Positions 4,379-19,502 of a stretch of DNA of 64,000 bases are shown piece after piece. A program made the position numbers and the translations under genes. Source of the stretch: Planctomycetaceae bacterium (GTDB taxonomy: Bacteria; Planctomycetota; Planctomycetia; Pirellulales; Pirellulaceae); contig PBNZ01000021.1 in assembly GCA_002723275.1 (NCBI GenBank), positions 111,931 to 175,930 of the forward strand. The letters are read 5' to 3'. The notes under the pieces are model-generated. The model was not told the origin of the DNA. It saw only the letters and a program-made list of their open reading frames with translations, and did not search any database. Each line of letters starts with the position of its first letter. The first letter of the stretch is position 1.

Positions 4379-4573
4379 TCCGAATCGAGCCTTTTTAGTC
4401 GGGGTGCATAGAATCCGTGAAATACAATCTCCTATCGAGTATGGTCTGAATCGAGCCATCGTACCAGGAGAGTAAGTAAAAACCTCTGAGATCCAAAGGC
4501 GTGGCTCAGTCGTCCAGGCAGCGGATCTGTTGCCCGAAAAGAATCACCCTGTACTCAATCTTGGATTTGCGGA

Positions 4574-5395
4574 TCAGTCGGTCTCGATCCCGGAGACCAA
4601 GTCACCAAAATCCAATTCCAGTCCGCCATCAACTACTAGAGTTTGCCCGCTGACATAGTCGGCGTCGGAACTTGCAAGATAGACAAATGCTGCTGCGATT
4701 TCCTCGGGTCGGCCCAAGCGTTTCCAGGGCAGTTTTTGAGACCCTGCCTGGAGCTGTGCTTCTGAAACGAAGGTCCGTTCATTTGGAGTGTCAATCCATC
4801 CGGGGTTCACCCCGTTAACATTGATCCGATATTTCGCCAGCTCAACTGCCAGGACTCTGGAAAAGTGTTGATTCGCCGCTTTGCACATCGAATAAACACC
4901 ATGACATTTCACGGCGATGTCGGCGTGCACGCTGCCGTTGATCAGAATTTTACCTCCCGGCCTTCCTGCCTCACATTGTTTGATCATTTGCCGCGCGGCT
5001 TGCTGACATGTGTTAAAAACTCCATACATACAGGTGTCCACAATACGTTGAACATCGTCCCATTCCGTTCGCACAATCGGCTCTTTCACATTCACCGCTG
5101 CATTGGCCAGAGCGATATCGACGTGGCCGAAGAAATCGACAGCCTGTTCGAACATCGCAAGCACTTGCTCGCGTTTACCGACGTCGGCATAGCAGACGAG
5201 AGCTCGACGTCCTAATGCTTCGATTTGCTGCTTCGTCTCTTCTGCGGAATTTTCCTTTGCCGACTGTTTGGGCGACCGACCATTGACCACGATATCGGCA
5301 CCTTCACGAGCCATCGCCAGCGCCGTCGCGCGGCCAATGCCCTGAGACGATCCGGTAATTAAAGCGACTTTTCCGGCAAGTTTACCTGCAGACAT
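4574..5395 (-). CDS. Short-chain dehydrogenase/reductase (SDR), classical type
   Basis: NAD(P)-dependent oxidoreductase of the classical SDR family, about 273 residues. Visible motifs are the cofactor site TGSSQGIG near residues 14-21, a NAA variant of the NNAG motif, the catalytic Ser in NGS, Tyr and Lys in YSMCK, and the C-terminal substrate-lid region NPGWIDTPNE ending in SGQTLVVDGG. The ATG at 5395 is preferred: GGAGAG lies about 12 bases upstream and the protein then begins MSAGKLAGKVALITG. The alternative TTG at 5446 would add 17 atypical residues and overlap the upstream gene. It is the last gene of the tightly packed block, 35 bases after another SDR. Likely role: oxidation or reduction of a hydroxyl on a sugar-derived intermediate; substrate not determinable. 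Confidence 0.88.
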   Translation of the reverse strand: MSAGKLAGKVALITGSSQGIGRATALAMAREGADIVVNGRSPKQSAKENSAEETKQQIEALGRRALVCYADVGKREQVLAMFEQAVDFFGHVDIALANAAVNVKEPIVRTEWDDVQRIVDTCMYGVFNTCQQAARQMIKQCEAGRPGGKILINGSVHADIAVKCHGVYSMCKAANQHFSRVLAVELAKYRINVNGVNPGWIDTPNERTFVSEAQLQAGSQKLPWKRLGRPEEIAAAFVYLASSDADYVSGQTLVVDGGLELDFGDLVSGIETD

Positions 5396-5430
5396 GACAG
5401 TGCTTCTCTCCGCAATTGAATTCAAACGTT

Positions 5431-6207
5431 CTACCAGGCGGTCCAACCGCCATCGACCGTCAGGTTTTGCCCAGTGACATAGCTTGAAGCAGCACTGGCG
5501 AAGAAGACAACAGCCCCCTTCAATTCGTTGGGACGTCCCATTCGCTTCATGGGCGACTTCTGTTTGAGCCGATCGACCAGTTCACGAGGAGCCGAATCGG
5601 GATTGGGGAAGGGGCCGGGGCTGATGCAATTGACTCGCACACTGTCGCTCGCCCAATAGACCGCCAGGTGTCGCGTCATATGAATCGTTCCGCCCTTCAG
5701 AGCGTGGTAGGCCACCGAACTTGCCTGGCAGATTCCTTCATAGGCATCCGGATAGGAGGCAACCTGTCCATACATCGACCCGATGTTGATGATGCTTGCT
5801 GGAGATTTTCGATCGACCGCATGACGATGCAATTGCCGCGACAATTCAAAATAGCCTGCATTGTTGACCTGGTGTTTCGCGAAATCTTCAAAGGCAACCG
5901 TATTCAGATCGTCGCCCAGGATTTCAAGTCCGTTGTTCACCAGAATATCAATCGTTCCACCTTCGAGTGCGTCTTGAAAACCAGCTGCAATGGAATCCTC
6001 AATCATGTGATCGAGTTGTATCGCTCGATGTTTCTGACCAGACTCAGTAACCAGCGAATTTGCGATACGTTCAGCACGCGCGCGTTCACGACTGGAAATA
6101 ATGACGGTGGCACCCGCTTCGGCCAAACCCTCCGCCATGGCTCGTCCGAGCCAACCTGTTCCGCCTGTGACTAAAGCTGTTTTTTGAGTAAGGTCGAAAA
6201 GATTCAT
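5431..6207 (-). CDS. Short-chain dehydrogenase/reductase (SDR), gluconate-5-dehydrogenase-like
   Basis: SDR oxidoreductase of about 258 residues beginning MNLFDLTQKTALVTGG. The nucleotide site is TGGTGWLG, a variant of TGxxxGIG in which Trp-Leu replaces Gly-Ile. NNG stands for NNAG, Ser lies in NIGSMYG, Tyr/Lys in YHALK, and the end is GQNLTVDGGWTAW. An in-frame ATG at 6228 overlaps the stop of the upstream aldo/keto reductase (ATGGTAA) and would add MVSSDTV; the ATG at 6207 fits the usual SDR start better. Neither has a clear ribosome binding site, so translation is probably coupled to the preceding gene. The two adjacent SDRs are clearly different in sequence and probably act at different steps. 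Confidence 0.85.
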   Translation of the reverse strand: MNLFDLTQKTALVTGGTGWLGRAMAEGLAEAGATVIISSRERARAERIANSLVTESGQKHRAIQLDHMIEDSIAAGFQDALEGGTIDILVNNGLEILGDDLNTVAFEDFAKHQVNNAGYFELSRQLHRHAVDRKSPASIINIGSMYGQVASYPDAYEGICQASSVAYHALKGGTIHMTRHLAVYWASDSVRVNCISPGPFPNPDSAPRELVDRLKQKSPMKRMGRPNELKGAVVFFASAASSYVTGQNLTVDGGWTAW

Positions 6208-6221
6208 GACAGTGTCTGAAC

Positions 6222-7136
6222 TTACCATTTTCGTGGGTCGATAATTTCGGCGGGCAAATTTTGAAACGAATGATCGAGCGTTTCTATCAGTTCGGGATCG
6301 AGACGTCTCGTCGCATACTCCAGGTTATCCTCCAACTGTTTCAGGTTGTCGACGCCAACCACCGCAAAGTTAACAAAGGAGTGAGACATGACGTAGGGTA
6401 AAGCAACATCCAGCACCGAACAACCAAAGTCGCTCAACAAACGATGCAATCTTTGCAAGGGCTCTCTCAGAGGGGCAATCGAGGCAGGAAGTTGATCGGG
6501 AGACATGGTCAGTGCACCCTGCAAAAGAGCGCTACGAGCAAAAACACGCGGCGATCGATGCGGTGTCGCATTCACAAATCCTGAATCACGAAAACGCCGA
6601 TCAAACAAATTGAAGGGCAATTGAATGGTGAGCTGATTACTGGAAGGGTCGGAGAATGAAAGATCGCTAACGTCATAAACGCTTACGCCGATCGAACGTG
6701 TCGCACCTCGCTCAACTTGAGTCAACATTGCATCCCAAATTGCGTCTCCATATCGCGAAATCATCGCAGCATCATGTAGCATCCACGTATCGAGTTGATC
6801 GCATCGCAAATCCTTTCGGGATGCATCAATCTGACCCGCCACCCAATCGGATAGACCTGCGACCGACACCGGTTGCTCGGGTGCGGGCAACTTTGAGATC
6901 AGCCGCACATCGTCACGTCGAGGATGCTGGCCCAAAAATCGCCCGATCCGTTCCTCAGCATTTCCATAAGCGCGAGCAGTATCCCAGTAAAGGACACCTC
7001 GCTCAATGGCTCGCTCGAGCACCTTGTCGCAGGCCATCGTATCGGGACGACCACTTGCATTCGCGACTCCATAATCAAGGCCCAGCTGAGCAGTCCCCAA
7101 ACACAGACGCGAGATGCCATCAGTATTAACGGACAA
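6222..7136 (-). CDS. Aldo/keto reductase
   Basis: NADPH-dependent aldo/keto reductase, TIM barrel. Motifs: LCLGTAQLGLDYG at the start, WDTARAYGNAEERIG carrying the catalytic Asp and Tyr, Lys in ISKLP, His in WMLHD, and the late cofactor region VVGVDNLKQLEDNL. Start: an ATG at 7196 would overlap the upstream gene by 71 bases and give an unrelated hydrophobic leader. A TTG at 7136 has GGGAG about 7 bases upstream, leaves only an 11-base overlap and puts the conserved ISRLCLG close to the start, so I prefer it. The protein is then about 304 residues. It lies between the D-threonine-aldolase-like gene and the SDR in the catabolic block. Carbonyl substrate unknown. Confidence 0.83.
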   Translation of the reverse strand: MSVNTDGISRLCLGTAQLGLDYGVANASGRPDTMACDKVLERAIERGVLYWDTARAYGNAEERIGRFLGQHPRRDDVRLISKLPAPEQPVSVAGLSDWVAGQIDASRKDLRCDQLDTWMLHDAAMISRYGDAIWDAMLTQVERGATRSIGVSVYDVSDLSFSDPSSNQLTIQLPFNLFDRRFRDSGFVNATPHRSPRVFARSALLQGALTMSPDQLPASIAPLREPLQRLHRLLSDFGCSVLDVALPYVMSHSFVNFAVVGVDNLKQLEDNLEYATRRLDPELIETLDHSFQNLPAEIIDPRKW

Positions 7137-8220
7137 TCGGAATCTCCCGTTCAAATTTACCGCCACGAAAGCCAAGAAAACCAGGATGCAGCACATTGGT
7201 CAGGTCGGCATAACCTGGAATAATTTCCACGGGCTGACCGATCTTGGGAGGCGTTGCATCCTCCGTCAATCTCAAGACACCATGTTCCGCCGAGAGTGAC
7301 TCGACCAAAAGTCCCTTAGGCTCTCGCACGCGTGGACGATAGATTTCTATATTCAGCGCTTTGCGCCCCGTATCGACAACCACGCGATCGGGCGTGGGCA
7401 TGCTGACCACCGTCGCCATGATCGTCAGCGAATTTTCCAGCTGATCGATTTGGCATGAGTGACGATAGAACTCATCCATAAAGATCGCACCACCCGCTTG
7501 TATTTCGGTAATTCCGTTTTGCTTGACGGTAATCGGAAACGATCCAGTCCCACCACAGGAGACGATCGAGCAGGGGAGTCCGCGACTTTCCAATCGGTCT
7601 CGGGCAGTCATCGCCTTTGCCAGCGCTTGCCGGATCGTCTGTTCCTTTTCCTGCAAGTCCTCAATGGTCAACAAGTGCCCTTCGTAGGCCATCACGCCAG
7701 CCAATTCGAGCCCGGGCAACGAGTGGACCTTCTCCGCTAATCGTTCAACCAGTTCAAGATCATCAACACCAACACGGTTCATACCGATTTCAAGTTCGAT
7801 CAACACACGGACGTAAACACCCGCAGTCGCCATGGCCTGTGAAATGGCATCAGCTTGATCTTGATGATCAAGACAAATGATCGGGTCAGCCTTGGATGCA
7901 AGCTCAACCAGACGTTGAATCTTGGCCGGACCCGCAATCAAATTCGCAATCAGTAGATCTCGAATCTCGGCCTCGGCCATCAACTCCGCCTCTCGGATTG
8001 TCGCACAAGTCAAACCGATCGCTCCTGCGTCAACGAGCCATCGGCCAATGATTGGAGACTTGTGACATTTTGCATGAGGTCGCCAATCGACACCGTGCTT
8101 CTGACAAGTCTCCACCATGATCTGTACGTTTGCGTCAAACAGATCAAGATCGAGACACAAGGCAGGCGTATACAAATCCGTTTTTGAACAACCGACAACC
8201 GCTTGATGAAGACTATTCAC
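7126..8220 (-). CDS. D-threonine aldolase / D-serine dehydratase-like PLP enzyme (alanine racemase fold)
   Basis: Fold-type III PLP enzyme of 364 residues. The N-terminal alanine-racemase-type barrel carries the PLP lysine in RPHAKCHK (Lys51), and TPALCLDLDLFDAN is the typical N-terminal strand. The C-terminal domain has EHGVLRL (His313), where family members bind a divalent metal. The second metal motif, usually PGH-x-(C/D), reads PGYAD here, so the expected His is Tyr337 while Asp339 remains. Family members cleave D-3-hydroxy amino acids to glycine and an aldehyde, or dehydrate them. The GTG start overlaps the symporter stop as GTGA, implying translational coupling. With an aldolase, an aminotransferase and dehydrogenases around it, a role in degrading a hydroxy-amino compound is plausible but inferred. 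Confidence 0.82.
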   Translation of the reverse strand: MNSLHQAVVGCSKTDLYTPALCLDLDLFDANVQIMVETCQKHGVDWRPHAKCHKSPIIGRWLVDAGAIGLTCATIREAELMAEAEIRDLLIANLIAGPAKIQRLVELASKADPIICLDHQDQADAISQAMATAGVYVRVLIELEIGMNRVGVDDLELVERLAEKVHSLPGLELAGVMAYEGHLLTIEDLQEKEQTIRQALAKAMTARDRLESRGLPCSIVSCGGTGSFPITVKQNGITEIQAGGAIFMDEFYRHSCQIDQLENSLTIMATVVSMPTPDRVVVDTGRKALNIEIYRPRVREPKGLLVESLSAEHGVLRLTEDATPPKIGQPVEIIPGYADLTNVLHPGFLGFRGGKFEREIPIVR

Positions 8221-10670
8221 GCATCTGCCTCAGCGATTTCAATGGAAGGGCTTGGTCGACCGCACAGCACACTTGCAATCAATCCGACCACAACGGACAC
8301 GGTAAATGAAGAGGGAATAATCCAGAGAAAACTGATTCCCTGTTCACCAAAAAGCTCTTGCCAAAAGGCGATCAGGATCGCAGTCGCAATCCCCGAGAAA
8401 GATCCCACGAGCGTTCCCAGCGTATTGGCTCGTTTGACAAACATCGCCATAAAAAACAGGTAGAAGAGCGGCGCCGTGAAAAGATTAGCAACCTTGTAAA
8501 TGACCTCCAACATATTGCCTTGAATGTTGCCGATCTGAGAGCTTAACAATACGACCAACAGGCCAACGAAAGCCGAGGTCCAACGGACGAATCGAACGGG
8601 GAGCGGTTCAAGGTGATCTTGCCGCACCAAACGTCGAATGAAATCCTCACTAATCACTGCCGCTGATGAATTCACACCCGACGATAAACTCGACATAGCA
8701 GCCGCCAACAGACCGGCGATCACCAAACCACTGAAACCGATTGGCAAGCCAACGACAACAAAGCGGGAAAAGAGACCATCGGCATTGGCATAAACCGATT
8801 GACCATCCGCCAATCGTTGTGGAAATTCAGTGAAATAAGCGAGCAAAGCCAGCCCCAACATCCCCAACAAGGCCGTCACCAGGCAATCGGTCACGAGAGA
8901 GATTCCCAACGTCCGCCGAGCGGCAGCGACATCCTTCGTCGAAAGATACCGTTGTATCGCCATTTGATCGGCTCCCGCGGTGCAAACGTACCAGGCAAAG
9001 GTCCCGAGCATCGCATTCGCCAGAGTCGCGCGAGTGTTCGGGTCAAAACTAAACCAGATCTTCGGCGTCTGCCAATGGGCAGCCCATTCTTGAGGAAACC
9101 AGGCGAATGCGCCACCTACCGCATTTGAAATCAAAACCAGCGAAACTCCCGCTCCCAAAAAGAGAATGAACGTTTGAATAACATCGGTGAATACAACCGC
9201 CTTGAGTCCGCCGAGTGAGGTGTAACAGACGGTCAATAAACCAATACCAAAGGCAAACCAGGGTGTGTAGCCTTGGCTCAAACCCGAAACCGGAATCAAG
9301 ACGATCGCGGTCGTCCAATAAATGATTGATGCCATCCACAAGAATCGCAATGTCAGAAACAGAAACGATCCCAGCAAACGCACAACGATTCCGAATCGCA
9401 ACTCAAGTATTTCATAAGCGCTGGTCACCTTGAGCCGCATGATACGAGGAATCAAGAACCAGCCAACGACCAGATAGATCAGCGGAAATGAACAATATCC
9501 CAACAAGACAATCGGCCCGTTCTTGATCATTTCACCGGGCCACGCCAGATAAGACAAGGTACTGAGCATGGTGGCAAAAAGAGAAAGTCCCACCATCCAG
9601 GAACGCATGCTCCTGCCGCCAAGCAAATAGTCACCTGTCGTTTTCGTGCGACGCGCGTAATAGACCCCAACGGCCAGCATTCCTAATCCATAGAGTGCAA
9701 CAACGCACCAATCGAGGAGGGGCAAACGTACGGTTTGACGACGACCGATTCGGCAGAGTGCATAAGCTGCACTCGTCCGCAAATCGTTTCCAGCTTCTTG
9801 TTCATTCAGCAAAGCTTGCAGGTGTGGTCGCCAGTCATCCCCCATTTCAGCGGCGAGCTCCACGACCTCCGTCCGAGCTTCAGGACTTCCCGTTTGCAGA
9901 ACCGTCAACAATTCGGATTCGACGCCGGCCCGCGCAGCATCATCCTTGGGCAGATGTTGAAAGATCGCGGTCAACAAAGGCACGCGAGCCATTGAATCTG
10001 TGGGCTCCTTGCCGAACGCCGTGGTTAATTGCTGCTGAATCGCTGGAGTCATCTGAGTCAATTGTCGCAGGACCGACCCGGCCATCGCGCGAACCGAAGG
10101 ATCCTGATCGGCCAACATTTGACCGAGCACTTGCTCCGCCTGATCATCATTTTGGTTCGCCAATAACCAGGCAGCGTGAGCTCGAGTTAAATCCGAGCCC
10201 TGATCCATCGCCACGCGAGCCGCATTTTCGAGACCCTCGATATCCCTTGGCTGAACACCGAGTTGTGCCAGAGCTGTAATCGCTTTCCCCTGTTCGAAAC
10301 TCTCTGCATCTTGAGCAGTAGCGACAAGCCGATCCAGATACTGTTGATGTAACTTTTTGTCGTGTTGTTTCAGCCGGGCAAGAACTCGCCACTTGTCGAT
10401 ACGATTGCCGACCTGATCGCCTAATACACCCGACAATGGTTCGGCCACATCCGATCGATAATCCAGACTGGTCAAATGATCGGCGGCTTGGATGATGAGT
10501 GGCCAGTCATCCGAAGCGAGTGCCGTTTGAAGCAATTGAACATGATCGTCTTCTTGCGGAGCCGCATCTTCACGCCCACAGCCGCTGGCCGACGACAGCA
10601 GAACACAGATCGCCATGATCGATATGAGACGACTTCCCGAATCGATCAGATTTTTCCTTCGGCGTGCCAT
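8217..10670 (-). CDS. HEAT-repeat domain fused to sodium:solute symporter (SSS family)
   Basis: An 817-residue fusion. Residues 1-31 are a basic start, a hydrophobic stretch and a lipobox-like SASGC. Residues about 40-310 are alpha-helical HEAT-like repeats (for example AAWLLANQNDDQAEQVLGQM and QDPSVRAMAGSVLRQL). From about residue 317 a 12- to 13-helix transporter follows, with the SSS signature TGDYLLGGRSM and the conserved helices of sodium/sugar, sodium/proline and sialic acid symporters. Plain SSS proteins have about 500 residues and no such N-terminal domain. Predicted topology puts the HEAT domain outside the inner membrane. It overlaps the PhyH gene by 25 bases and the downstream gene by 4, so it is firmly inside the block and is its only importer. 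Substrate unknown. Confidence 0.87.
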   Translation of the reverse strand: MARRRKNLIDSGSRLISIMAICVLLSSASGCGREDAAPQEDDHVQLLQTALASDDWPLIIQAADHLTSLDYRSDVAEPLSGVLGDQVGNRIDKWRVLARLKQHDKKLHQQYLDRLVATAQDAESFEQGKAITALAQLGVQPRDIEGLENAARVAMDQGSDLTRAHAAWLLANQNDDQAEQVLGQMLADQDPSVRAMAGSVLRQLTQMTPAIQQQLTTAFGKEPTDSMARVPLLTAIFQHLPKDDAARAGVESELLTVLQTGSPEARTEVVELAAEMGDDWRPHLQALLNEQEAGNDLRTSAAYALCRIGRRQTVRLPLLDWCVVALYGLGMLAVGVYYARRTKTTGDYLLGGRSMRSWMVGLSLFATMLSTLSYLAWPGEMIKNGPIVLLGYCSFPLIYLVVGWFLIPRIMRLKVTSAYEILELRFGIVVRLLGSFLFLTLRFLWMASIIYWTTAIVLIPVSGLSQGYTPWFAFGIGLLTVCYTSLGGLKAVVFTDVIQTFILFLGAGVSLVLISNAVGGAFAWFPQEWAAHWQTPKIWFSFDPNTRATLANAMLGTFAWYVCTAGADQMAIQRYLSTKDVAAARRTLGISLVTDCLVTALLGMLGLALLAYFTEFPQRLADGQSVYANADGLFSRFVVVGLPIGFSGLVIAGLLAAAMSSLSSGVNSSAAVISEDFIRRLVRQDHLEPLPVRFVRWTSAFVGLLVVLLSSQIGNIQGNMLEVIYKVANLFTAPLFYLFFMAMFVKRANTLGTLVGSFSGIATAILIAFWQELFGEQGISFLWIIPSSFTVSVVVGLIASVLCGRPSPSIEIAEADA

Positions 10671-11410
10671 TCGTCATTCAATTGCTGCTGGTATTGCTCA
10701 CTTGCCGCCTCATTCACGACCGAATCAGCGGAAAAATAGACGAAGCCCAAAGCGCGTCGCAATCGCGAGGATCGATTTGGATCAGCGCGATGTATCGTCA
10801 AGGCATGGTGGACAATCACATCACCAGGAGCCAGGCAAGCGGCCTCCTCTGCTTCAACATCCTCAGCGGTCCCATAATCAATGATTCCCTGACTGAAGCC
10901 CAGCACACGGGTGCGGGAGTGCGGTCGCATGCCTCGTTGATGCGATCCACGCACGTAGTAGATGCACCCATTCTCTCGGTCTACCGTATCCAAGGCCAAC
11001 CAGATCGTAAGGGCCTCGCACGGTTCCAGGAGAAAATAGAATCCGTCTTGGTGCGGCGGAGTCTGATCTCCGATTTTTGGCAACTTGTTGAAGAAGGCTG
11101 CGTCATGTGGCTTGAGTTTCGTGGAGCTCAGATCTCTGGCCAACTCGGCCACAGCCCCCTCTTTCAGCATTTGAGCGAAGAAGGCATTGTGCTTTTCCAT
11201 ACGAGAGAGCATACGAATTTGCCGTCGTTCTTCGGGATCCTCACAGAAGACGTCCATGTCGGGCAAGTTCGGAACCGTTTCGTCAACATACCGTTGAAGA
11301 TTCGTGCGAACGGTGTTCAACGCCCCTTCATCCAAGAAGTTACGCACAATCACAAAGCCATCTCGTTGGAAAGATGCTCTGATATCATCCTTTTGTTGCG
11401 GCCATTTCAT
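10646..11410 (-). CDS. Phytanoyl-CoA dioxygenase (PhyH) family protein
   Basis: Fe(II)/2-oxoglutarate-dependent oxygenase of the PhyH family, 254 residues. The facial triad is visible: His120-x-Asp122 in PPHQDGFYF and the distal His207 in HHALTIHRADPN, with Arg residues shortly after that could bind 2-oxoglutarate. GCIYYVRGSHQRG is the typical mid-region. Family members hydroxylate or oxidatively cleave small molecules. The ATG at 11410 is preceded by GAGAGGGA about 10 bases upstream. It overlaps the symporter gene by 25 bases. In this block it could open a C-N or C-O bond or demethylate the imported compound; that is inference from position. Confidence 0.88.
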   Translation of the reverse strand: MKWPQQKDDIRASFQRDGFVIVRNFLDEGALNTVRTNLQRYVDETVPNLPDMDVFCEDPEERRQIRMLSRMEKHNAFFAQMLKEGAVAELARDLSSTKLKPHDAAFFNKLPKIGDQTPPHQDGFYFLLEPCEALTIWLALDTVDRENGCIYYVRGSHQRGMRPHSRTRVLGFSQGIIDYGTAEDVEAEEAACLAPGDVIVHHALTIHRADPNRSSRLRRALGFVYFSADSVVNEAASEQYQQQLNDEWHAEGKI

Positions 11411-11458
11411 GTTCGTCGGTCCCTCTCGTGGAAGGCTGTTCGCTAACCCGGCTTGCCA

Positions 11459-12253
11459 TTATTTCAAGCGGTTATCAAAGGTGAAGCCAAGTGCCGCATA
11501 TTGAGCCTGCAGGGCTTCGTGAGCAAGTTTGATCGTGACGATATCCGCACCCGAACAAATGAATCGCCCCTTCATATCCATGTACTTTTGCGCTTCTTCG
11601 GGAGAACCCACGGGTCTTCCCCAATGTTTTCCACATTGAATCGCGGCATTCGCAACACGTTCCGTTGCCTCAATAATTTTGGGGTGCTGAATTTCACCGG
11701 GGATTCCCAGTTGCAAACTCATGTCGGCTGGCCCGAGCATCAACACATCAACCCCTTCCACGGCAGCGATCTGCTCGACGTTTTCCAAGGCAGCGGCCGT
11801 TTCGATCTGAATAATGATAACGGTCTCTTGGTTGGCCTGCTCCGTATATTCCGCAATGGGCATGGAGAGATAAGGCACGTCCGCGTTGGCCGCGTCGCAA
11901 CCACGGCGTCCCAGCGGCGGAAACTTGCACCAGTGGACAACCTCAGCGGCCTCTTCGGCTGTGTCACACTGCGGATACATGATGGCATGGGCTCCGACTT
12001 CGAGCATGCGGCCCATCCGCAAATACTCGCCCTTCGCTGGTCGCACGACGATGTCCGAAGATCCGACTCGAGCCGCCGCCATTAAACTGGTGACGCGTTC
12101 CAGACTGATGCCGTGGTGCTCCATGTCGACCCAAATACCATCAAAGCCCATTAGACTTGTCATCTCAAAAAGCGCAGAATCTCCAAAGTGCAAACAGGTA
12201 ATCAGCACAGGTTCATCACGCGCAAGCTTCGCCTTGATTCGACTTTGTCGCAT
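11459..12253 (-). CDS. HpcH/HpaI-family class II aldolase (2-keto-3-deoxy acid aldolase)
   Basis: Divalent-metal-dependent aldolase of 264 residues that splits 2-keto-3-deoxy acids into pyruvate and an aldehyde. Family residues are in place: the catalytic His in DMEHHGIS (His46), Arg71 in RPAKGE, and the metal ligands Glu151 (IQIETA) and Asp177 (LGPADMS). The conserved FPPLGRRGC segment is also present. Relatives include 2-dehydro-3-deoxyglucarate aldolase and 2-keto-3-deoxy-L-rhamnonate aldolase. It suggests the pathway passes through a 2-keto-3-deoxy acid and ends in pyruvate, although no obvious sugar-acid dehydratase is in the window. It lies 109 bases after the fused amidohydrolase/aminotransferase gene and 48 bases before the PhyH gene. 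Confidence 0.9.
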   Translation of the reverse strand: MRQSRIKAKLARDEPVLITCLHFGDSALFEMTSLMGFDGIWVDMEHHGISLERVTSLMAAARVGSSDIVVRPAKGEYLRMGRMLEVGAHAIMYPQCDTAEEAAEVVHWCKFPPLGRRGCDAANADVPYLSMPIAEYTEQANQETVIIIQIETAAALENVEQIAAVEGVDVLMLGPADMSLQLGIPGEIQHPKIIEATERVANAAIQCGKHWGRPVGSPEEAQKYMDMKGRFICSGADIVTIKLAHEALQAQYAALGFTFDNRLK

Positions 12254-12362
12254 TAAGCCGGATACCCTTTCTTGTCTTGTTTCAAAAATTCAAATGGCCG
12301 CCGACATATTAGCAGAATTTATTGGCGTCATTGCATTCAGGCAGGGCAGCAATCCACGAATT

Positions 12363-14780
12363 CTAAGTCAACCTGCGAAAACCAGAATGTTTGACACCAT
12401 GGTCCAGTCGTTGGTGTACGTTATTCTCGGAGATGGCGACCGCTAATTCACCGAAGACTTGATCCAGCGTCTCCAAATACCTCGCGACAATCGACTGCGT
12501 ATGGGCCAACGTCAATGAGCAGATACCGGCCACGAGATAACCGCGTGCCAACATCAAATTCGTCATCAGCGTCAGCAATGCCGCGTTGTCCGGATGGTCG
12601 AAACTCAACATACAAGAAGCGGGGCGACCGCTGATGAGAACCGGGAGTTCATGTTTTGTGGCCAATTCCCGCCAACCCTGCATTACCTGAGTTCCCACTT
12701 CTTTGAGATGAGCTGGCACATCGATGCGTTGCATTTTTTTGATCGAGGCAACCGCCGCGGCTGGCCCTACGCCTTCGGTCCAGTAAGTACTTGAGATAAA
12801 GGAATCCTGGCAAGCTTGCATGGCGTCGGCCTGACCAATCACCGCCGCCATCGGAAAACCGTTACTCATGCCCTTCGCAAACACTGCCAGATCGGGTTCG
12901 ACATCATACATTCGATGAGCTCCGCCGAGACACAAACGCCAAGCCGAAGAAATCTCATCGAAAACCAACAGAGCTCCACGCTGATGGGCACCGTCGCGAG
13001 CGGCTTCCAGAAATCCATCGATGGGATCGACACTGCGCGTGGGCTCCATCACAACGGCAGCAAGTTGGTCTCCACAACGGTCTAATGCCGATTCGAGTTG
13101 CTCAAAGTCATTGTATTGGAATGTTGCCACGGTACCGGCCAATTCGGCGGGCACCCCGGTTGGCTCGAGCCCCGGCAACAAGTGCGAATCCAGTCGATGC
13201 GGTCCCGTCTGTTCCTGATCCGTCTGCAGATTTGCGGCCAGGTACCAATCATGCCAGCCATGGTATCCGCAAACGGCGACTTTACTACGACCGGTCACTG
13301 CACGAGCAACGCGAACCGCAGCCGCCATCGCCTCGCCCCCGGTACGAGTAAACCGGGCCTGGTCGGCCCATGAATGAATGTCGATGAGCAATTGGGCCAG
13401 TTCGACTTCGTCGGCAGTTTGCTGCGTTGCCATACTGCCCAGATGCACTCGGCGAATCACAGCATCATTAACGTCTGGATCGGCATAGCCCAACACACAT
13501 GACAAGATGCCACAGTGCGACATGTCGACGTAACGATTGCCATCGGTGTCCACCACTTCACAACCGATCGCCTGTTGAAAATAGGCTGGCCAACGTCCGG
13601 GCGCGAACATTTCCGGCCGTTTCGAAAGCAGCTGAGTTCCGCCTGGAATCAGCGTTTTCGCGCGTTGATACAGCGTTTGGACATGGTTGTTGTGATCTTC
13701 GATTTCAGACTCATTCTGCGCCGTTCGCCGACGTTTACCGGCTGCCAACAATTGCCGCGCGTTATGGCTGAATATTTGCTCGACGTCCGAATCGCGAAGC
13801 GCCATTGTGCGACAGGCTTGCTGCAAGGCCAACAGTGACTCGACTCCAACAAGCTGTGGTTGATTCAACGAGGTCTCATGCCATTCGGCATTGTAATCAT
13901 GCAACCAATAGAATCCGTCCCCGATCGAAACACATCGTCCTCGCATTTCCGATACGGGAAAATCACTCCCATACAGCAGTCGTGACGGTCCAAAGTTGCG
14001 CAGGATCGCCTCCATCCCAGCAGATTCGCAAACCGCCGAGGTGTCGAACCAAACGTTAGGTATCCCACGCAATGAGGCAATGCCTTCCACCGTATGGTTT
14101 GCATTGAAGCCCCGCGCGGCATGCGCGAGAATGAGATGAGCATGAGGATATTGTCGACAATAGTTCTGAATGTATTGCTGATTCCGAACGTCACTGAGAG
14201 CACCTTCCAGCACCATGTGCATCATGATGACCAATTCGTGGCGGTTTGCGATCTCCCAGGCCCAGTCGGGCAGAAACTCACCTTGCTCTGCCGCGAAGGT
14301 ATCCTCACGGGCGGCAAACACGTGATACACCTTGAAGCCCACGAAGCCTTGACGCAAGAGAGTCGATTCGACCTCTACAGGATCGTCATCGGGTCGAATT
14401 AACATTAGCGCCGAACTACCGGGCGCATCGGCCAGCGAATCAATGACAAAATCATTGGCAACACGACAATCCAAACCGGCAATCGGAAATCCAAAATAGA
14501 GACCGTCCTGGACAACACGTTCCCCCATCCACTGTTGCATGCAACGAACGAGCGTCGAATGGTCAACGGCCGCTGGGTCGGGCAACTGCTCGGGTGAAAG
14601 CTGCGGTAACAAATGACTCAAGTCATAGAGGTGCGCGTGAAAATCGAACGAATCGGGCGGCACGAAAGAACCAATTCGCCGACCGAAAATTTCACGATCG
14701 GCTTCTTCATAACTTAAGGCATGGACGTTCGCAGCTCGCAATAAGAGCTGCTGTGCCTTCGTCAGGTTTAGATCGTTCAT
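12363..14780 (-). CDS. Bifunctional fusion: amidohydrolase-2 domain + class III aminotransferase (GSA aminomutase-like)
   Basis: An 805-residue two-enzyme fusion. Residues about 40-345 form a metal-dependent TIM-barrel amidohydrolase: HxH in DFHAH (48, 50), a candidate carbamylated Lys150 in GFKVYHVF, His188, His220 in LILAH and Asp273 in YGSDFP. Residues about 360-785 form a class III PLP aminotransferase resembling glutamate-1-semialdehyde aminomutase: LIPGGTQLLSKRP, GYHGWHDW, the FDEI cofactor aspartate (608) and the PLP lysine in VFAKGMSNGFP (Lys636). All key residues of both halves are present, so both may be active. Fusion implies that hydrolysis (ring or lactone opening, or decarboxylation) and transamination are consecutive steps. 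It starts 26 bases after the upstream secreted propeller gene. A heme-biosynthesis role is unlikely given the context. Confidence 0.87.
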   Translation of the reverse strand: MNDLNLTKAQQLLLRAANVHALSYEEADREIFGRRIGSFVPPDSFDFHAHLYDLSHLLPQLSPEQLPDPAAVDHSTLVRCMQQWMGERVVQDGLYFGFPIAGLDCRVANDFVIDSLADAPGSSALMLIRPDDDPVEVESTLLRQGFVGFKVYHVFAAREDTFAAEQGEFLPDWAWEIANRHELVIMMHMVLEGALSDVRNQQYIQNYCRQYPHAHLILAHAARGFNANHTVEGIASLRGIPNVWFDTSAVCESAGMEAILRNFGPSRLLYGSDFPVSEMRGRCVSIGDGFYWLHDYNAEWHETSLNQPQLVGVESLLALQQACRTMALRDSDVEQIFSHNARQLLAAGKRRRTAQNESEIEDHNNHVQTLYQRAKTLIPGGTQLLSKRPEMFAPGRWPAYFQQAIGCEVVDTDGNRYVDMSHCGILSCVLGYADPDVNDAVIRRVHLGSMATQQTADEVELAQLLIDIHSWADQARFTRTGGEAMAAAVRVARAVTGRSKVAVCGYHGWHDWYLAANLQTDQEQTGPHRLDSHLLPGLEPTGVPAELAGTVATFQYNDFEQLESALDRCGDQLAAVVMEPTRSVDPIDGFLEAARDGAHQRGALLVFDEISSAWRLCLGGAHRMYDVEPDLAVFAKGMSNGFPMAAVIGQADAMQACQDSFISSTYWTEGVGPAAAVASIKKMQRIDVPAHLKEVGTQVMQGWRELATKHELPVLISGRPASCMLSFDHPDNAALLTLMTNLMLARGYLVAGICSLTLAHTQSIVARYLETLDQVFGELAVAISENNVHQRLDHGVKHSGFRRLT

Positions 14781-14806
14781 GAACGGGTCAGCAGAAAAAG
14801 CTCGAA

Positions 14807-17248
14807 CTATTTGAACTGCATCGAGTAAACGTCGGCATCTTTAAGGACGAATCGAAGACGTATTGGTTTGCCTGCGAGCTCTTCAAGCTTCCCATCACCC
14901 TTCCAACGCACGACTCCCTCAAGTCGGTCGCCAATGAGCGTTGCACAATCGGCCAGGGAGAACCCGGGAATCGCCTTTCCATCCACATCCTGCAATTCAA
15001 CGGTAATCGAACCCGCCGCACTCGTCGCATAATTGAGTTGGAGTTGCGTGTCCTTGGATGCGTCAAACACGATCGGTTTGGTAATAACTTCACCCGGCTG
15101 ATAGCCTGCATGCAGCGAAGCAAAGCCATCGGTGCGAAGCGTAAATCTCTGCAAGAAGGCTGTTGGCTGTCCGTAATTTTTCTGGATATAGAACGAAATC
15201 TGCTCTTCTCCGGTCGGTACAATCCCGAGAGCAGGATAGTTGGTTCGTGAGACCCAATTCTCGAGACCAAGCCCCGGTCGCACGAAAGATTCCATGAATG
15301 TGCGATCGTATTGACTGCCACCTCGCGTCGTCAACAAGACCGCATCCGAGCAGTCACGAAAATAACGATGATCGACGTTGATCCGCTTCGCTTCTTCCGG
15401 CGTCAACACTTGTCGATTCGGCATGAATCGAGCTGCAATACCGAGGGAAATATGCGGGGCACGAAAGTAAGGTGACGTCTGATTGGTGTAGAGATGTTCG
15501 TGCGGAGTATCTCCGAAGGTCATCTCAACCGGATCAGTCCAATGAATAAAATCTTTCGAGGTGGTCCGGCTGACCGTTCGAAAACCGCTGTAACCCGATC
15601 CCGTCCAAGTCCGGAAATAACAGACATACTGTTGCTCGGATTCCGAGTAAAACGAAACGTTTTGCGAATCGAAAACGCCTTTCGTAAAGACGGGCTCTTC
15701 CTGGATTCTCTTCCAGTTAATACCGTCAGGCGAAGCGTACGCCAGCAAACCCTTCGCCGTACCACCGAGTGCCTTGTAACGTTGGCTCGCAGGGGCTCTA
15801 GGATTCGCATCCTTGAACGGCGAGAAGTTGTGTGTGGCCGGTGCGTGATTCGCTAGGATCACGTTGTTGTCACGAGTGCCATCGACTTCATAGATTTTGA
15901 GATTCGGCTTCTCCCAGTGGATACCATCGCGGCTTTCGGCATAACAGGTCACTTCTGAACTACTGCCATCGCCACCGACACGAGGAAGACCGCGATAATA
16001 CATTCTCAACAGATCACCATCATGGATCACCGTAATGTAACCACAAAAGGCGCCTTCCCACGGACGATCAAAGGTTAGAACTTTTTCAGCAGCCCGAGGA
16101 GCGTGCATCTGCAAGGTCGCATTCTCCATGCGATCGATCAGATGATGGTCCACAAAAAGTTCACGTCGACTTCCGATATCGATTGGCTCGGCTGCACTTT
16201 CCTTTGCAGCAGCATCGGTATCGAAGCGGACCTTGGCCAGGTAGATGTTCGTTTTGCCTTCATGGCTGGCGTAATAGCTGACCCAAAGCGTATCATCTCG
16301 CCAAAGCATGCCCGGATAACTAGTATCTCCGCCCGACGGTAGTCGCAAGAAGGGCTTCATCGTCCCGTCTTCAATATCCAACTCAACAAGTTCAGTTCGA
16401 GCGCCACCATCATACAAACGGCCCGATCCAATCCAGCCACCATCAAGGTCACGAATAAAATTAGGGCCACCAATACGGGCGCCCAGATCATGCCACTTCC
16501 AATCCTTGTAGGGTGGTTTGGCAACGCCAAGGTAAGCCGAATTGCCAGTTCCATCACGACGATGGAAACAATAAGCATTCCCCTGTTCATCGAAACGAAG
16601 ACGCGCTTCGGTCGGCCATCCGCCTTCGGTCAGCAATTCATCGGTAACCGTTTCGTAATGAATGCCATCTTTCGTTTTCAGCAGCGAACTCTTCCCTCGA
16701 TCATCTGGCGTGCCATACGCAACTCCGTAGGCCGTATCTCCATGCCAAGTAACTCGCCACAACCAACGTCCGAGGGGAACGACGATACGTGGCTCCGTAA
16801 AACTCTTTCCATCTTCGGAGAAACTCACGAAGGTTCCTGTAGAACGTCCAGTGGATAGATTCTGTTGAGCTCCGCCGAGCACCATCAAGCGGTCGTCAGG
16901 GGTCACTGACAGGGCAGCATCTCGCAGATCATAGTCATCCAGATCCAACAAGCCTGCCGATTCCCATTTGTCACCATCGCTGGTCACAATGATCCTGAGC
17001 TTCCCGATGTCGCCCGCATGCCCCTTGCCTTCGCGAAAAGCACAATAGATTTTCCCATTCCACTCCACCAGGTCGGTAAAGGCATTGTGCGGAGCATCAT
17101 CCCAAATTCGTTTCGTGTCAACTTGTGCAACTTTATCTTCGTAGGTGGAAGCCTCGGTCTTCTCAATCAAGCCGAACCAGGTCGTCAAACCCATGAAGGC
17201 AAGAACGCAGATCATGAAAGGGGGCAGCGAGCGATTTGGGTCACACAT
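14807..17248 (-). CDS. Secreted two-domain beta-propeller protein (sialidase-like + glycosidase-like)
   Basis: About 813 residues with an N-terminal signal or anchor (MICVLAFMGLTTWFGLIEK). Residues about 40-350 look like a sialidase-type propeller: DGDKWES, SEDGKSFTEPR and TKDGIHYETV resemble Asp-box-like turns. From about residue 360 (RRELFVDHHLID) a second, five-bladed-propeller-like domain follows, as in secreted glycosidase-family 32/43-like proteins (DGDLLRMYYRG, AESRDGIHWEKPNL, SPDGINWKRI). Catalytic acids cannot be assigned by eye. The ATG at 17248 is chosen because AGGAA lies about 7 bases upstream; the ATG at 17287 adds a charged 13-residue leader. The second half is paralogous to the next upstream gene. 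Likely role: binding or cutting of an extracellular glycan whose product the block degrades. Confidence 0.75.
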   Translation of the reverse strand: MCDPNRSLPPFMICVLAFMGLTTWFGLIEKTEASTYEDKVAQVDTKRIWDDAPHNAFTDLVEWNGKIYCAFREGKGHAGDIGKLRIIVTSDGDKWESAGLLDLDDYDLRDAALSVTPDDRLMVLGGAQQNLSTGRSTGTFVSFSEDGKSFTEPRIVVPLGRWLWRVTWHGDTAYGVAYGTPDDRGKSSLLKTKDGIHYETVTDELLTEGGWPTEARLRFDEQGNAYCFHRRDGTGNSAYLGVAKPPYKDWKWHDLGARIGGPNFIRDLDGGWIGSGRLYDGGARTELVELDIEDGTMKPFLRLPSGGDTSYPGMLWRDDTLWVSYYASHEGKTNIYLAKVRFDTDAAAKESAAEPIDIGSRRELFVDHHLIDRMENATLQMHAPRAAEKVLTFDRPWEGAFCGYITVIHDGDLLRMYYRGLPRVGGDGSSSEVTCYAESRDGIHWEKPNLKIYEVDGTRDNNVILANHAPATHNFSPFKDANPRAPASQRYKALGGTAKGLLAYASPDGINWKRIQEEPVFTKGVFDSQNVSFYSESEQQYVCYFRTWTGSGYSGFRTVSRTTSKDFIHWTDPVEMTFGDTPHEHLYTNQTSPYFRAPHISLGIAARFMPNRQVLTPEEAKRINVDHRYFRDCSDAVLLTTRGGSQYDRTFMESFVRPGLGLENWVSRTNYPALGIVPTGEEQISFYIQKNYGQPTAFLQRFTLRTDGFASLHAGYQPGEVITKPIVFDASKDTQLQLNYATSAAGSITVELQDVDGKAIPGFSLADCATLIGDRLEGVVRWKGDGKLEELAGKPIRLRFVLKDADVYSMQFK

Positions 17249-17358
17249 GGCTGATTCCTTTTCCTTTTTGCAATCACCATCCGCCAAACTCAGTGGCAGA
17301 AAGATTGGTCGTACAAAGGGAGCATGGTACAGGAGGGGGCTACGTCGACTCTACACGA

Positions 17359-18891
17359 TCAAGTGGATGGTCGGGTCACTGTGATGGCAAACAGTTTAGC
17401 ATTTTCCAGATGCAGTCGTATCTGATATTTGCCCACCGGTAGATCAGAAATCTTTTTTTCGCGCCACTGCACCTGGTGATCCAGCTGATCGCCCTTGATG
17501 GGAATCGCATCGGCCTTGGTAAAGCCAGGAATCCGATATCCGCCCTCCGAAAGCAACTCGACCTGGATCTGGCCCGACTCCGCTGCCGCATTCATTCGCA
17601 TTTTGGCGTCGCGAGTGAGAAGCTGCGGCTTCAAAGTTACCTGGGCATACTCGTCGCGAGGCTGTAGGGCCGCAAAACGATCACGAGGAATCGAAGCAAC
17701 ACCGATTCCCGTCGTACTACTATCGAAATCGGAGTTCCAACTTGGATAGGAGCCGTAATAAAAGCGAATTTCATCCTGCAAAATAACCGGCGTTCCATTG
17801 GTCCACAGGCAACCAGCGTCGAACGATTTTCCGTCACCGCTCACTGGCAAAAACATTTTTTCCTGGAAAGGTCTCTGCCATTGAATTCCGTCTCGGCTGG
17901 TCGCCAATTCGGACGGCATGTTTCCGGTGCCTCCGCGGTCATATCCACCGAAATCAAGTCGTTGCACCAGCGAGAAATAAACCCCGTGATGATCGAATAC
18001 GGGAGCACCATGTAATTGGCCAAAGTCATCGTCAGTCGGCACCATGACGACGATCGGTTCTGACCAATTAATGAAGTCGCTCGATTCAGTGCGAACAACA
18101 GCACGCTTCCAAAAGCGATCGCCCTGAGGCCCGTCGATCCAAGTTTTGGAATAAATCACATATCGCCCATTATTTGGATCGATCATCAGGTCGATAACAT
18201 CGCTGATCGCCGGGCGTTGTTTGGGTGATGAAGCTGATTCACTGACCAGCGGCGGTTGACCTGGTTCACCATAGGCACCCTGCAGTCGCGGAGGTGCCTC
18301 GAATTTTTCCCAATGGATCCCATCTGGTGAAAAGGCGACGCAAAGCCCTGGCACCTGTTTGCCCTCGACGTCGACAAAATCCCAATAGGCCAGTTTGTAG
18401 CGGCGCTGTGGGTTCTTTTCGGACTCATCATGAACCACTGCGGCACCATAATTAACACTACGTCCTCCATTACCAACCAGAACAATATTCGTCTTCTTCT
18501 GATCATTGAAATCGAAGAGATCAAGATCTGGCTTTTCCCATACAATTCCGTCTCGAGATGTCGCATAACACAAGACGACTCGACGCGTAGGATCCTTTGC
18601 ACGACCCCCAGCGTACGCCTGATACCAGGCCTGGTATTCACCGGTATCAGGTCGACGATGCACACTACAGTAACCAATCGCCAGTTCCCATGGTTTTGCA
18701 TCTGCAATGACCGGTTGGGCGCGTTTTTGGGCGGGTTGGATTTTTCGCTCTGAACCGGCGCGATAGAGAATATCGGCGTCATCGACAAAAAGAATTGTTT
18801 GTTCATTTGCGACGGCGAAACATGACAAACACGCCACGACCAAAACACACGTTGCGATGCGTCGCACCTGACGCTTCAAGAAGATCCCCAT
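17359..18891 (-). CDS. Secreted beta-propeller glycosidase-like protein
   Basis: 510 residues with a clear signal peptide (RRIATCVLVVACLSCFAVA). The mature part begins TILFVDDADILYRAGS and carries repeated propeller signatures: YATSRDGIVWEKPDLDLFD, SPDGIHWEKFEAPP, TSRDGIQWQRPF. These line up with the second half of the downstream 813-residue protein, so the two are paralogs. C-terminal YRIPGFTKADAIPIKGD also matches that protein's GFSLADCATLIGDRL region. First gene of the minus-strand block, 110 bases ahead of the next gene, facing the plus-strand surface-protein pair across a 611-base gap. Enzyme activity is presumed only from fold resemblance. Confidence 0.75.
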   Translation of the reverse strand: MGIFLKRQVRRIATCVLVVACLSCFAVANEQTILFVDDADILYRAGSERKIQPAQKRAQPVIADAKPWELAIGYCSVHRRPDTGEYQAWYQAYAGGRAKDPTRRVVLCYATSRDGIVWEKPDLDLFDFNDQKKTNIVLVGNGGRSVNYGAAVVHDESEKNPQRRYKLAYWDFVDVEGKQVPGLCVAFSPDGIHWEKFEAPPRLQGAYGEPGQPPLVSESASSPKQRPAISDVIDLMIDPNNGRYVIYSKTWIDGPQGDRFWKRAVVRTESSDFINWSEPIVVMVPTDDDFGQLHGAPVFDHHGVYFSLVQRLDFGGYDRGGTGNMPSELATSRDGIQWQRPFQEKMFLPVSGDGKSFDAGCLWTNGTPVILQDEIRFYYGSYPSWNSDFDSSTTGIGVASIPRDRFAALQPRDEYAQVTLKPQLLTRDAKMRMNAAAESGQIQVELLSEGGYRIPGFTKADAIPIKGDQLDHQVQWREKKISDLPVGKYQIRLHLENAKLFAITVTRPST

Positions 18892-19222: not shown

Positions 19223-19502
19223 AAAGAGAGAGAATCCGTTGTACTCGCAACAGCTCCCTGTTGAAAAACGTTGATCTTCGTCTCACTTGATGTTTTTCTC
19301 GCAATCGATGGGTGGTCCGACATCGAAGATGGCCGTGCCTAGATTACAATCGAACGACGACGTTGGAAACATTGAGATCCGTTTTCTTCCATCGATTCCG
19401 AGGGAACTAAAGAATTCGAACAATAGACATCGCAAACAGTTAGCTAAAAACTTGCCCATAGATCTATGGTTCTTAAGCACTCCAATCAGGACGAAAATTG
19501 CC

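Follow-up and report, generated by a model that had tools for sequence, protein, structure and literature searches.

A 64,000-nucleotide stretch of a Planctomycetaceae genome (contig PBNZ01000021.1 of assembly GCA_002723275.1; hereafter the window) contains a run of ten minus-strand genes at 4574–18891, and we tentatively suggest that they form a single operon for the catabolism of an N-acylated, nonulosonate-like (2-keto-3-deoxy) sugar acid which is cut from an external glycan. Pseudaminic, legionaminic, and other bacterial nonulosonic acids decorate flagella, surface glycans, and the biofilm matrix. We favor this reading over the alternatives, although we would not yet call it probable.

Organization of the block

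Re-reading of the sequence confirmed the ten-gene run, which the original prediction had described as tightly spaced and overlapping. From the first gene to the last the intergenic distances are 71, 26, 109, 48, −25, −4, −11, −7, and 35 bases, that is four overlaps and no gap of more than 109 bases; for these values two starts were re-read by eye, a TTG at 7136 for the aldo/keto reductase and an ATG at 5395 for the last gene. The first two genes code for secreted proteins without Pfam matches, namely a probable propeller of 510 amino acids (17359–18891), which might bind or cut glycan, and a protein of 826 amino acids (14807–17287), for which a predicted model and Foldseek suggest a sialidase-fold propeller followed by a GH43/GH32-like propeller. 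In both cases, secretion was judged by eye from the hydrophobic N-terminus. The remaining genes were assigned with Pfam: a fusion of an Amidohydro_2 domain (AH) with a class III aminotransferase (AT) at 12363–14780, an HpcH/HpaI-family class II pyruvate aldolase (11459–12253, PF03328), a PhyH-family Fe/2-oxoglutarate oxygenase (10646–11410, PF05721), a sodium:solute symporter that carries a HEAT region at its N-terminus (8217–10670, PF00474 and PF13646), a fold-III pyridoxal phosphate (PLP) enzyme of the D-threonine aldolase/D-serine dehydratase type (7126–8220), which belongs to a subfamily with a GYxD motif and could be an ammonia-lyase or have another role, an aldo/keto reductase (AKR; 6222–7136, PF00248), and two short-chain dehydrogenases, SDR1 (5431–6228) and SDR2 (4574–5395). 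Two points of the original prediction are corrected by this list: the fusion partner of the aminotransferase is Amidohydro_2, and the second supposed aldolase-type enzyme does not have the residues of an aldolase. Promoter-like and terminator-like sites in the block are not more frequent than in shuffled sequences (12 vs. 13.4 and 17 vs. 22.3, respectively); one terminator-like site (4500–4482) happens to fall after the last gene.

Conserved gene company around SDR1

Within the cluster, SDR1 is conserved best and serves as its marker; it is matched at E ≤ 1e-50 in 54 of 198 genomes of the class. All these matches, the window included, were taken as 54 SDR1 loci and their neighborhoods were searched 8.5 kb to each side, matches named as SDR being excluded from the tally. 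About ten loci are near-copies from one genus (g10), thus the 54 loci are not independent, and many loci end at contig ends, so that the counts of neighbors are lower bounds. A GFO/IDH dehydrogenase, which is missing from the window, lies near SDR1 in 41 loci. An HpaI-family aldolase is found in 28 loci, with at least 49% identity in 21 of them (window included) and with 32–39% in seven. The propeller protein (either half of the 826-residue protein) is present in 22 loci, a relative of the symporter in 15, an AspA-like hydrolase in 14, PhyH in 11, AH or AT in 11, a D-serine-dehydratase-like PLP enzyme in ten (8 + 2), a second Amidohydro_2 protein in eight, and a DapA-like protein as well as an M19-type enzyme in seven each. 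Rarer companions are the AKR (four loci, among them L170 and L179 at 32–34% and L212 at 27%), the PLP enzyme of the window type, and the 510-residue protein (two loci each). When 20 control loci that had been picked solely for the GYxD PLP enzyme were searched with the same queries, SDR2 was found in two, M19 in one, and all other query families in none.

The richest loci show how the families combine. L195 carries on one strand two AH–AT segments, a second Amidohydro_2 gene, DapA, a PLP enzyme, SDR1, PhyH, GFO/IDH, HpaI, a propeller, and a symporter. L060 contains AH, AT, SDR1, PhyH, GFO/IDH, HpaI, propeller, and symporter genes, and L170 a symporter, a PLP enzyme of another subtype, a propeller, HpaI, AKR, PhyH, and SDR1. 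Each of these three loci has about seven of the ten families. The original prediction had named scattered genes without conserved order as evidence against a common role. A fixed ten-gene order was indeed looked for in the loci of the relatives and not found, but the company is far above that of the 20 control loci. Thus, the gene company is real but modular.

Within the SDR1–HpaI cluster, six loci (L171, L172, L195, L221, L222, and L226) carry a triad of a D-serine-dehydratase-like, a DapA-like, and an Amidohydro_2 gene, which looks like a second amino-acid-sugar module; M19 dipeptidase-like genes lie beside it in L171, L172, L221, and L222. A DoeB-like protein and a PhyH protein were also met among the matches and prompted us to consider ectoine degradation as a possible reading.

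The fused amidohydrolase–aminotransferase and its link to nonulosonates

The fused gene has a full-length match in 18 of 392 genomes of the phylum, its own included, and the AH residues H48, H50, H188, H220, and D273, which we take to be metal ligands, are invariant in 16 of 16 sequences. A scan of genome contigs yielded at least 580 relatives, and the best 80 of these were examined; the following counts of fused and standalone genes refer to this set. By a rule on the match start, 48 of them were classed as fused and 32 as standalone, where L274 starts at the end of its contig and could be a truncated fused gene. The fused loci stem from Verrucomicrobiota (19), Planctomycetota (13), Bacteroidota (8), and other or no listed phyla (8). 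Their neighbors include SDR1 in 15 of the 48, a propeller in 14, a symporter in 11, BNR proteins and HpaI in ten each, PhyH and GFO/IDH in nine each, and SusD in five. Pfam confirmed a SusC-type gene together with SusD beside the fused gene in three Bacteroidota loci (L250, L253, and L267), and in the minimal loci L045, L066, and L067 HpaI directly adjoins AH–AT. Named strains with the fused gene are Chitinophaga alhagiae T22 and Membranihabitans marinus (L253, L256, and L267). AH and AT also occur as separate neighboring genes. As the ATs of such pairs (four compared) are 38–41% identical to that of the window, that is less than the standalone ATs found elsewhere (48–59%), judging from the sequences both domains may have been paired more than once in evolution.

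The standalone ATs connect this family with the biosynthesis of nonulosonic acids. NeuB is encoded in 12 of the 32 standalone loci, a CMP-transferase in 14, and either of them in 15, whereas neither was found in any of the 48 fused loci or in the Pfam results of the ten window genes. Pfam confirmed NeuB in L289, L294, and L301 and a cytidylyltransferase in these three loci and in L281. Five planctomycete loci (L052, L053, L055, L063, and L064) combine a standalone AT with NeuB and the CMP-transferase. In the 15 loci with NeuB or the CMP-transferase an AKR is present in six and a GFO/IDH match in seven, both together in none by this search. A quick AT tree of 118 rows (73 linked to AH, 20 to NeuB, 25 to neither) places the window within supported sets of AH-linked rows only; the AH/NeuB label changes five times among 93 rows, and the AH label 17 times once the rows with neither partner are included. 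For the pse islands of Aeromonas, an aldo/keto-type reductase has likewise been described together with a class III aminotransferase (PMC7874193). It is conceivable that AKR or GFO/IDH together with AT forms a hydroxyl-to-amine module in nonulosonate biosynthesis and that the cluster of the window is the reverse of this module. The genome of the window has a single weak NeuB match of 35.7 bits.

Putative secreted propellers, symporter, and aldolase

The model of the 826-residue protein has a mean pLDDT of 86.8 and two predicted propeller domains. The N-terminal domain (about residues 50–357) is modeled as a six-bladed sialidase fold with Z scores of 28.3–30.0 to sialidases over ∼295–305 residues; its best structural match is 5hx0, a protein of unknown function, with a Z score of 33.6. 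In a Foldseek search with the whole protein, the C-terminal part falls in the range of GH43/GH32 propellers. Conservation was read from an alignment of 20 rows, in which the window protein stands twice and several rows are near-copies; Glu227, Arg243, Arg290, and Tyr324 are conserved in 19–20 of these rows at plausible sialidase positions. According to the model the N-terminal domain is a sialidase-fold protein and not a demonstrated sialidase. The 510-residue protein is probably related to the 826-residue protein, since one family in the relatives matches best to the C-terminal half of the latter in L039 and L043 (22–24%) and to the former in L040 and L042 (26%).

The aldolase scores 100.3 bits against PF03328 (cut-off 25) and, with 148.8 bits, stays below the cut-off of 368.8 for HpaI proper (equivalog TIGR02311). 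When it is aligned to E. coli-type HpaI structures, the residues which we presume to be catalytic are retained. The HEAT region, which in the window is fused to the symporter, is a separate protein in L060. In the window symporter (8217–10670, minus strand), this N-terminal region follows an apparent lipoprotein signal.

The PLP enzyme is no aldolase by its residues

In D-threonine aldolase, the metal is bound via His347 and Asp349 and His193 is the base, whereas D-serine dehydratase binds its metal via His and Cys and lacks His193 (PMC4401734). The enzyme at 7126–8220 has Thr, Tyr, and Asp at positions 193, 347, and 349. Its GYxD subfamily was read in 22 sequences, one from the window and 21 drawn from the 58 further genomes that gave a match: His193 is present in none and Tyr-x-Asp at the metal site in all of them, and the PLP-binding lysine (Lys59 in AxDTA) is kept in the window and in 21 of 21 relatives. 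In contrast, the four solved aldolases compared (4v15, 7dib, 7yqa, and 6qkb) possess His193. The enzyme also scores only 235.2 bits against the NCBIfam model of BhcC (cut-off 690). Judged from these residues it is no aldolase, and the "two aldolase-type enzymes" predicted earlier are thus reduced to one. We rejected a role as D-threonine or hydroxyaspartate aldolase because the base His193 and the metal ligand His347 are absent.

The His-x-Cys pair of D-serine dehydratases is not present either, as Tyr-x-Asp stands in its place. This pair is found in the cluster relatives L170, L171, L172, L208, L216, and L226; the PLP enzymes of L195, L221, and L222 are legible only to the His, and L225 has His and Asn. 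The GYxD members are mostly located elsewhere (20 of the 22 that were read are found outside the cluster), and clustering of the 20 other neighborhoods revealed no recurrent partner that stood out. These planctomycete-wide relatives of D-threonine aldolase (L098–L117) have an invariant GYxD which replaces the metal His. Under either pathway reading discussed below, annotation of this branch as aldolase is unwarranted without a test.

A possible pathway and its alternatives

The genes, their families, the predicted folds, and the gene company are observed or computed, and from them we infer all reactions and the substrate. The secreted propeller proteins, whose folds are predicted, might release the sugar from an external polymer, and the symporter would import it. 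The AH part of the observed fusion would then remove the N-acyl group, and the AT part would turn the freed amine into a ketone. The AKR and SDR enzymes (GFO/IDH in the relatives) could interconvert ketone and alcohol, so that the biosynthetic hydroxyl-to-amine module would run backwards. Finally, the HpaI-family aldolase, in line with the known chemistry of its class, would cleave the presumed 2-keto-3-deoxy acid, yielding pyruvate plus an aldehyde, and PhyH and the PLP enzyme may act on leftover side groups or nitrogen. The more general part of the original prediction, that the cell takes up and degrades a piece of an external glycan with an amino or amide group, is supported by the gene company, by SusC/SusD in three Bacteroidota loci, and by nitrogen-removing or amide-hydrolyzing enzymes beside the aldolase. 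The lack of a sugar-acid dehydratase, which had been called notable, has two possible explanations: if the substrate is already a 2-keto-3-deoxy acid no such enzyme is needed, or the enzyme at 7126–8220 may be a PLP ammonia-lyase like OngC (PMC9537276).

Several observations weigh against a nonulosonate as substrate. The N-terminal propeller domain has Asn68 where we place the Arg of the sialidase FRIP motif, and His90 near the position of the acid Asp, each in 20 of 20 aligned rows; in the alignment, BNR proteins of cluster loci likewise lack the FRIP Arg. With Arg and Asp apparently replaced in this way, binding of an ulosonic carboxylate by this domain is not established. We know of no HpaI-type nonulosonate lyase. 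The AKR of the window is only 24–34% identical to the AKRs of NeuB-side loci, and none of the seven core partners is present in 18 of the 48 fused loci (many of them short) or in ten of the 30 longer ones. Amide hydrolysis by AH is a guess, as the superfamily holds lactonases and decarboxylases besides hydrolases; in the fold search COG3618 lactonase-type proteins, decarboxylases, and uncharacterized amidohydrolases were nearly tied at a TM score of about 0.5. Lastly, the D-serine-dehydratase-like enzymes in ten of the 54 SDR1 loci suit the alternative considered next at least equally well.

This main rival, which is close and which we nevertheless consider somewhat unlikely, is a route for oxidized amino sugars similar to that of the ong cluster. 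Here, an SDR or GFO/IDH enzyme would oxidize C1, AH would open the lactone or the N-acyl bond, the PLP enzyme would remove ammonia from a 2-amino-2-deoxy-aldonate, and HpaI would cleave the resulting 2-keto-3-deoxy acid; the enzyme at 7126–8220 would then be the "missing dehydratase". Such a reaction has a precedent, as OngC, a fold-III PLP enzyme, turns 2-amino-2-deoxygluconate (GlcN1A) into 2-keto-3-deoxygluconate (KDG) and ammonia, and the ong cluster also has a sodium:solute symporter, a deacetylase of the amidohydrolase fold, and RidA (PMC9537276; fold of OngB, PMC12017989). The triad described above, in which the D-serine-dehydratase-like gene adjoins the DapA-like and Amidohydro_2 genes, the dehydratase-type His-x-Cys residues in six relatives, RidA nearby in L172 and L226, and the missing aldolase base of the window enzyme all fit this route. 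However, the window enzyme has Tyr where dehydratases have a metal His, its GYxD relatives sit mostly away from the cluster, and in L045 HpaI stands beside AH–AT alone, without such a PLP enzyme. In addition, this route leaves the role of the aminotransferase unexplained, and no KdgK-like gene is found among the ten. If it is nevertheless the aldonate route, the oxidized-amino-sugar pathway would extend to additional phyla, in which its final step differs.

With still lower probability, the substrate could be an amino compound of a different kind, for instance a neutral amino sugar or a beta-hydroxy or N-acyl amino acid, and HpaI would act on a 4-hydroxy-2-keto acid that does not derive from a sugar acid. 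The AspA-like and M19-type hydrolases in the clusters (14 and seven of the 54 loci) and the nearest solved relatives of the PLP enzyme, which act on beta-hydroxy amino acids, point in this direction; SusC/SusD and the secreted propellers, on the other side, indicate a glycan, and the PLP enzyme lacks the aldolase residues. It is very unlikely that the block synthesizes or edits an amino sugar of the cell's own surface with HpaI as condensing enzyme. The AT and AKR have relatives within nonulosonate biosynthesis clusters, but NeuB and the CMP-transferase are absent from all 48 fused loci, the one NeuB match of the genome is weak, and the importer, the secreted propellers, and the SusC/SusD company speak against it. 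That unrelated genes merely happen to follow one another on the same strand, for which one could cite the missing fixed order and the rarity of the 510-residue protein, can practically be dismissed in view of the four overlaps and the company relative to the control loci.

Returning to the catabolism of a nonulosonate-like sugar acid, the far-reaching form of this proposal is that the cluster encodes a route, the first of its kind, for degrading bacterial nonulosonic acids other than sialic acids, those with amino modifications among them, with AH–AT and the reductases as the reverse module and an HpaI-family lyase, in Planctomycetota, Verrucomicrobiota, and Bacteroidota. We regard this stronger claim as rather improbable. 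If true, it would provide a route for recycling the carbon and nitrogen of these sugars and enzymes to detect or remove them.

Neighboring genes

On the same strand, 114 bases beyond the last of the ten genes, lies a gene of the penicillin amidase family (2213–4459), which as an amide hydrolase might extend the block to eleven genes; among the 54 SDR1 loci, the one of the window alone gave a match. Divergent to the block, the region 19287–25489 (plus strand) codes for a protein of 718 amino acids with Laminin_G_3, dockerin, and PEP-CTERM domains and for a CotH kinase of 1349 amino acids with lamin-tail, LamG, and weak dockerin matches. An open frame with GEVED domains (1–1784, minus strand) runs off the left end of the window.

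Comparison with known systems

Glycan-linked catabolic clusters are of a known kind, and neither this gene set nor the AH–AT fusion was found described in our literature search, as judged by titles. A phrase search of a library of open papers for the catabolism or utilization of pseudaminic, legionaminic, or nonulosonic acid, or for lyases acting on these acids, gave no hit; by their titles, the papers found treat nonulosonate biosynthesis and sialic acid catabolism.

The ong cluster of Pseudoalteromonas for oxidized chitin (N-acetylated 2-amino-2-deoxygluconate, GlcNAc1A) has in common with the window a sodium:solute symporter (PF00474), an amidohydrolase-fold enzyme, and a fold-III PLP enzyme, and its route passes through a 2-keto-3-deoxy acid, as proposed here; OngC is a distant relative of D-serine deaminases and D-threonine aldolases (PMC9537276). 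Some of the clusters related to that of the window include RidA. The differences are that OngB belongs to the D-aminoacylase family and the AH of the window to Amidohydro_2, that Pfam matched neither KdgK nor RidA among the ten genes, that the window has in addition AT, PhyH, AKR, SDRs, propellers, and an HpaI-family aldolase, and that the metal-site residues of the PLP enzymes differ.

The nan clusters for sialic acid share the sialidase-fold secreted domain, the symporter family, and a pyruvate-forming aldolase. The sodium:solute symporter family also serves sialic acid. However, the window aldolase is of the HpaI and not of the NanA family, and the sialidase residues appear incomplete. A search for NanE gave no match in the window genome, which is 96.6% complete, whereas the control was positive in eight of 14 genomes. 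Because of the missing NanE and the doubtful sialidase residues, we rejected a plain sialic acid route.

The islands for the biosynthesis of nonulosonic (pseudaminic-type) acids (L281–L306 and PMC7874193) resemble the window in their AT (48–59% identity) and in the AKR or GFO/IDH partner, but they carry NeuB, CMP-transferase, and DegT, which the window cluster lacks, having instead an importer, an aldolase, and secreted propellers. BhcC and D-threonine aldolase resemble the PLP enzyme in fold, PLP lysine, and sequence and differ from it in possessing His193 and His347. Finally, SusC and SusD, which belong to the polysaccharide utilization loci of Bacteroidota, were not matched by Pfam in any of the ten window genes, whereas the loci L250, L253, and L267, which carry the same fused gene, are themselves such polysaccharide utilization loci.

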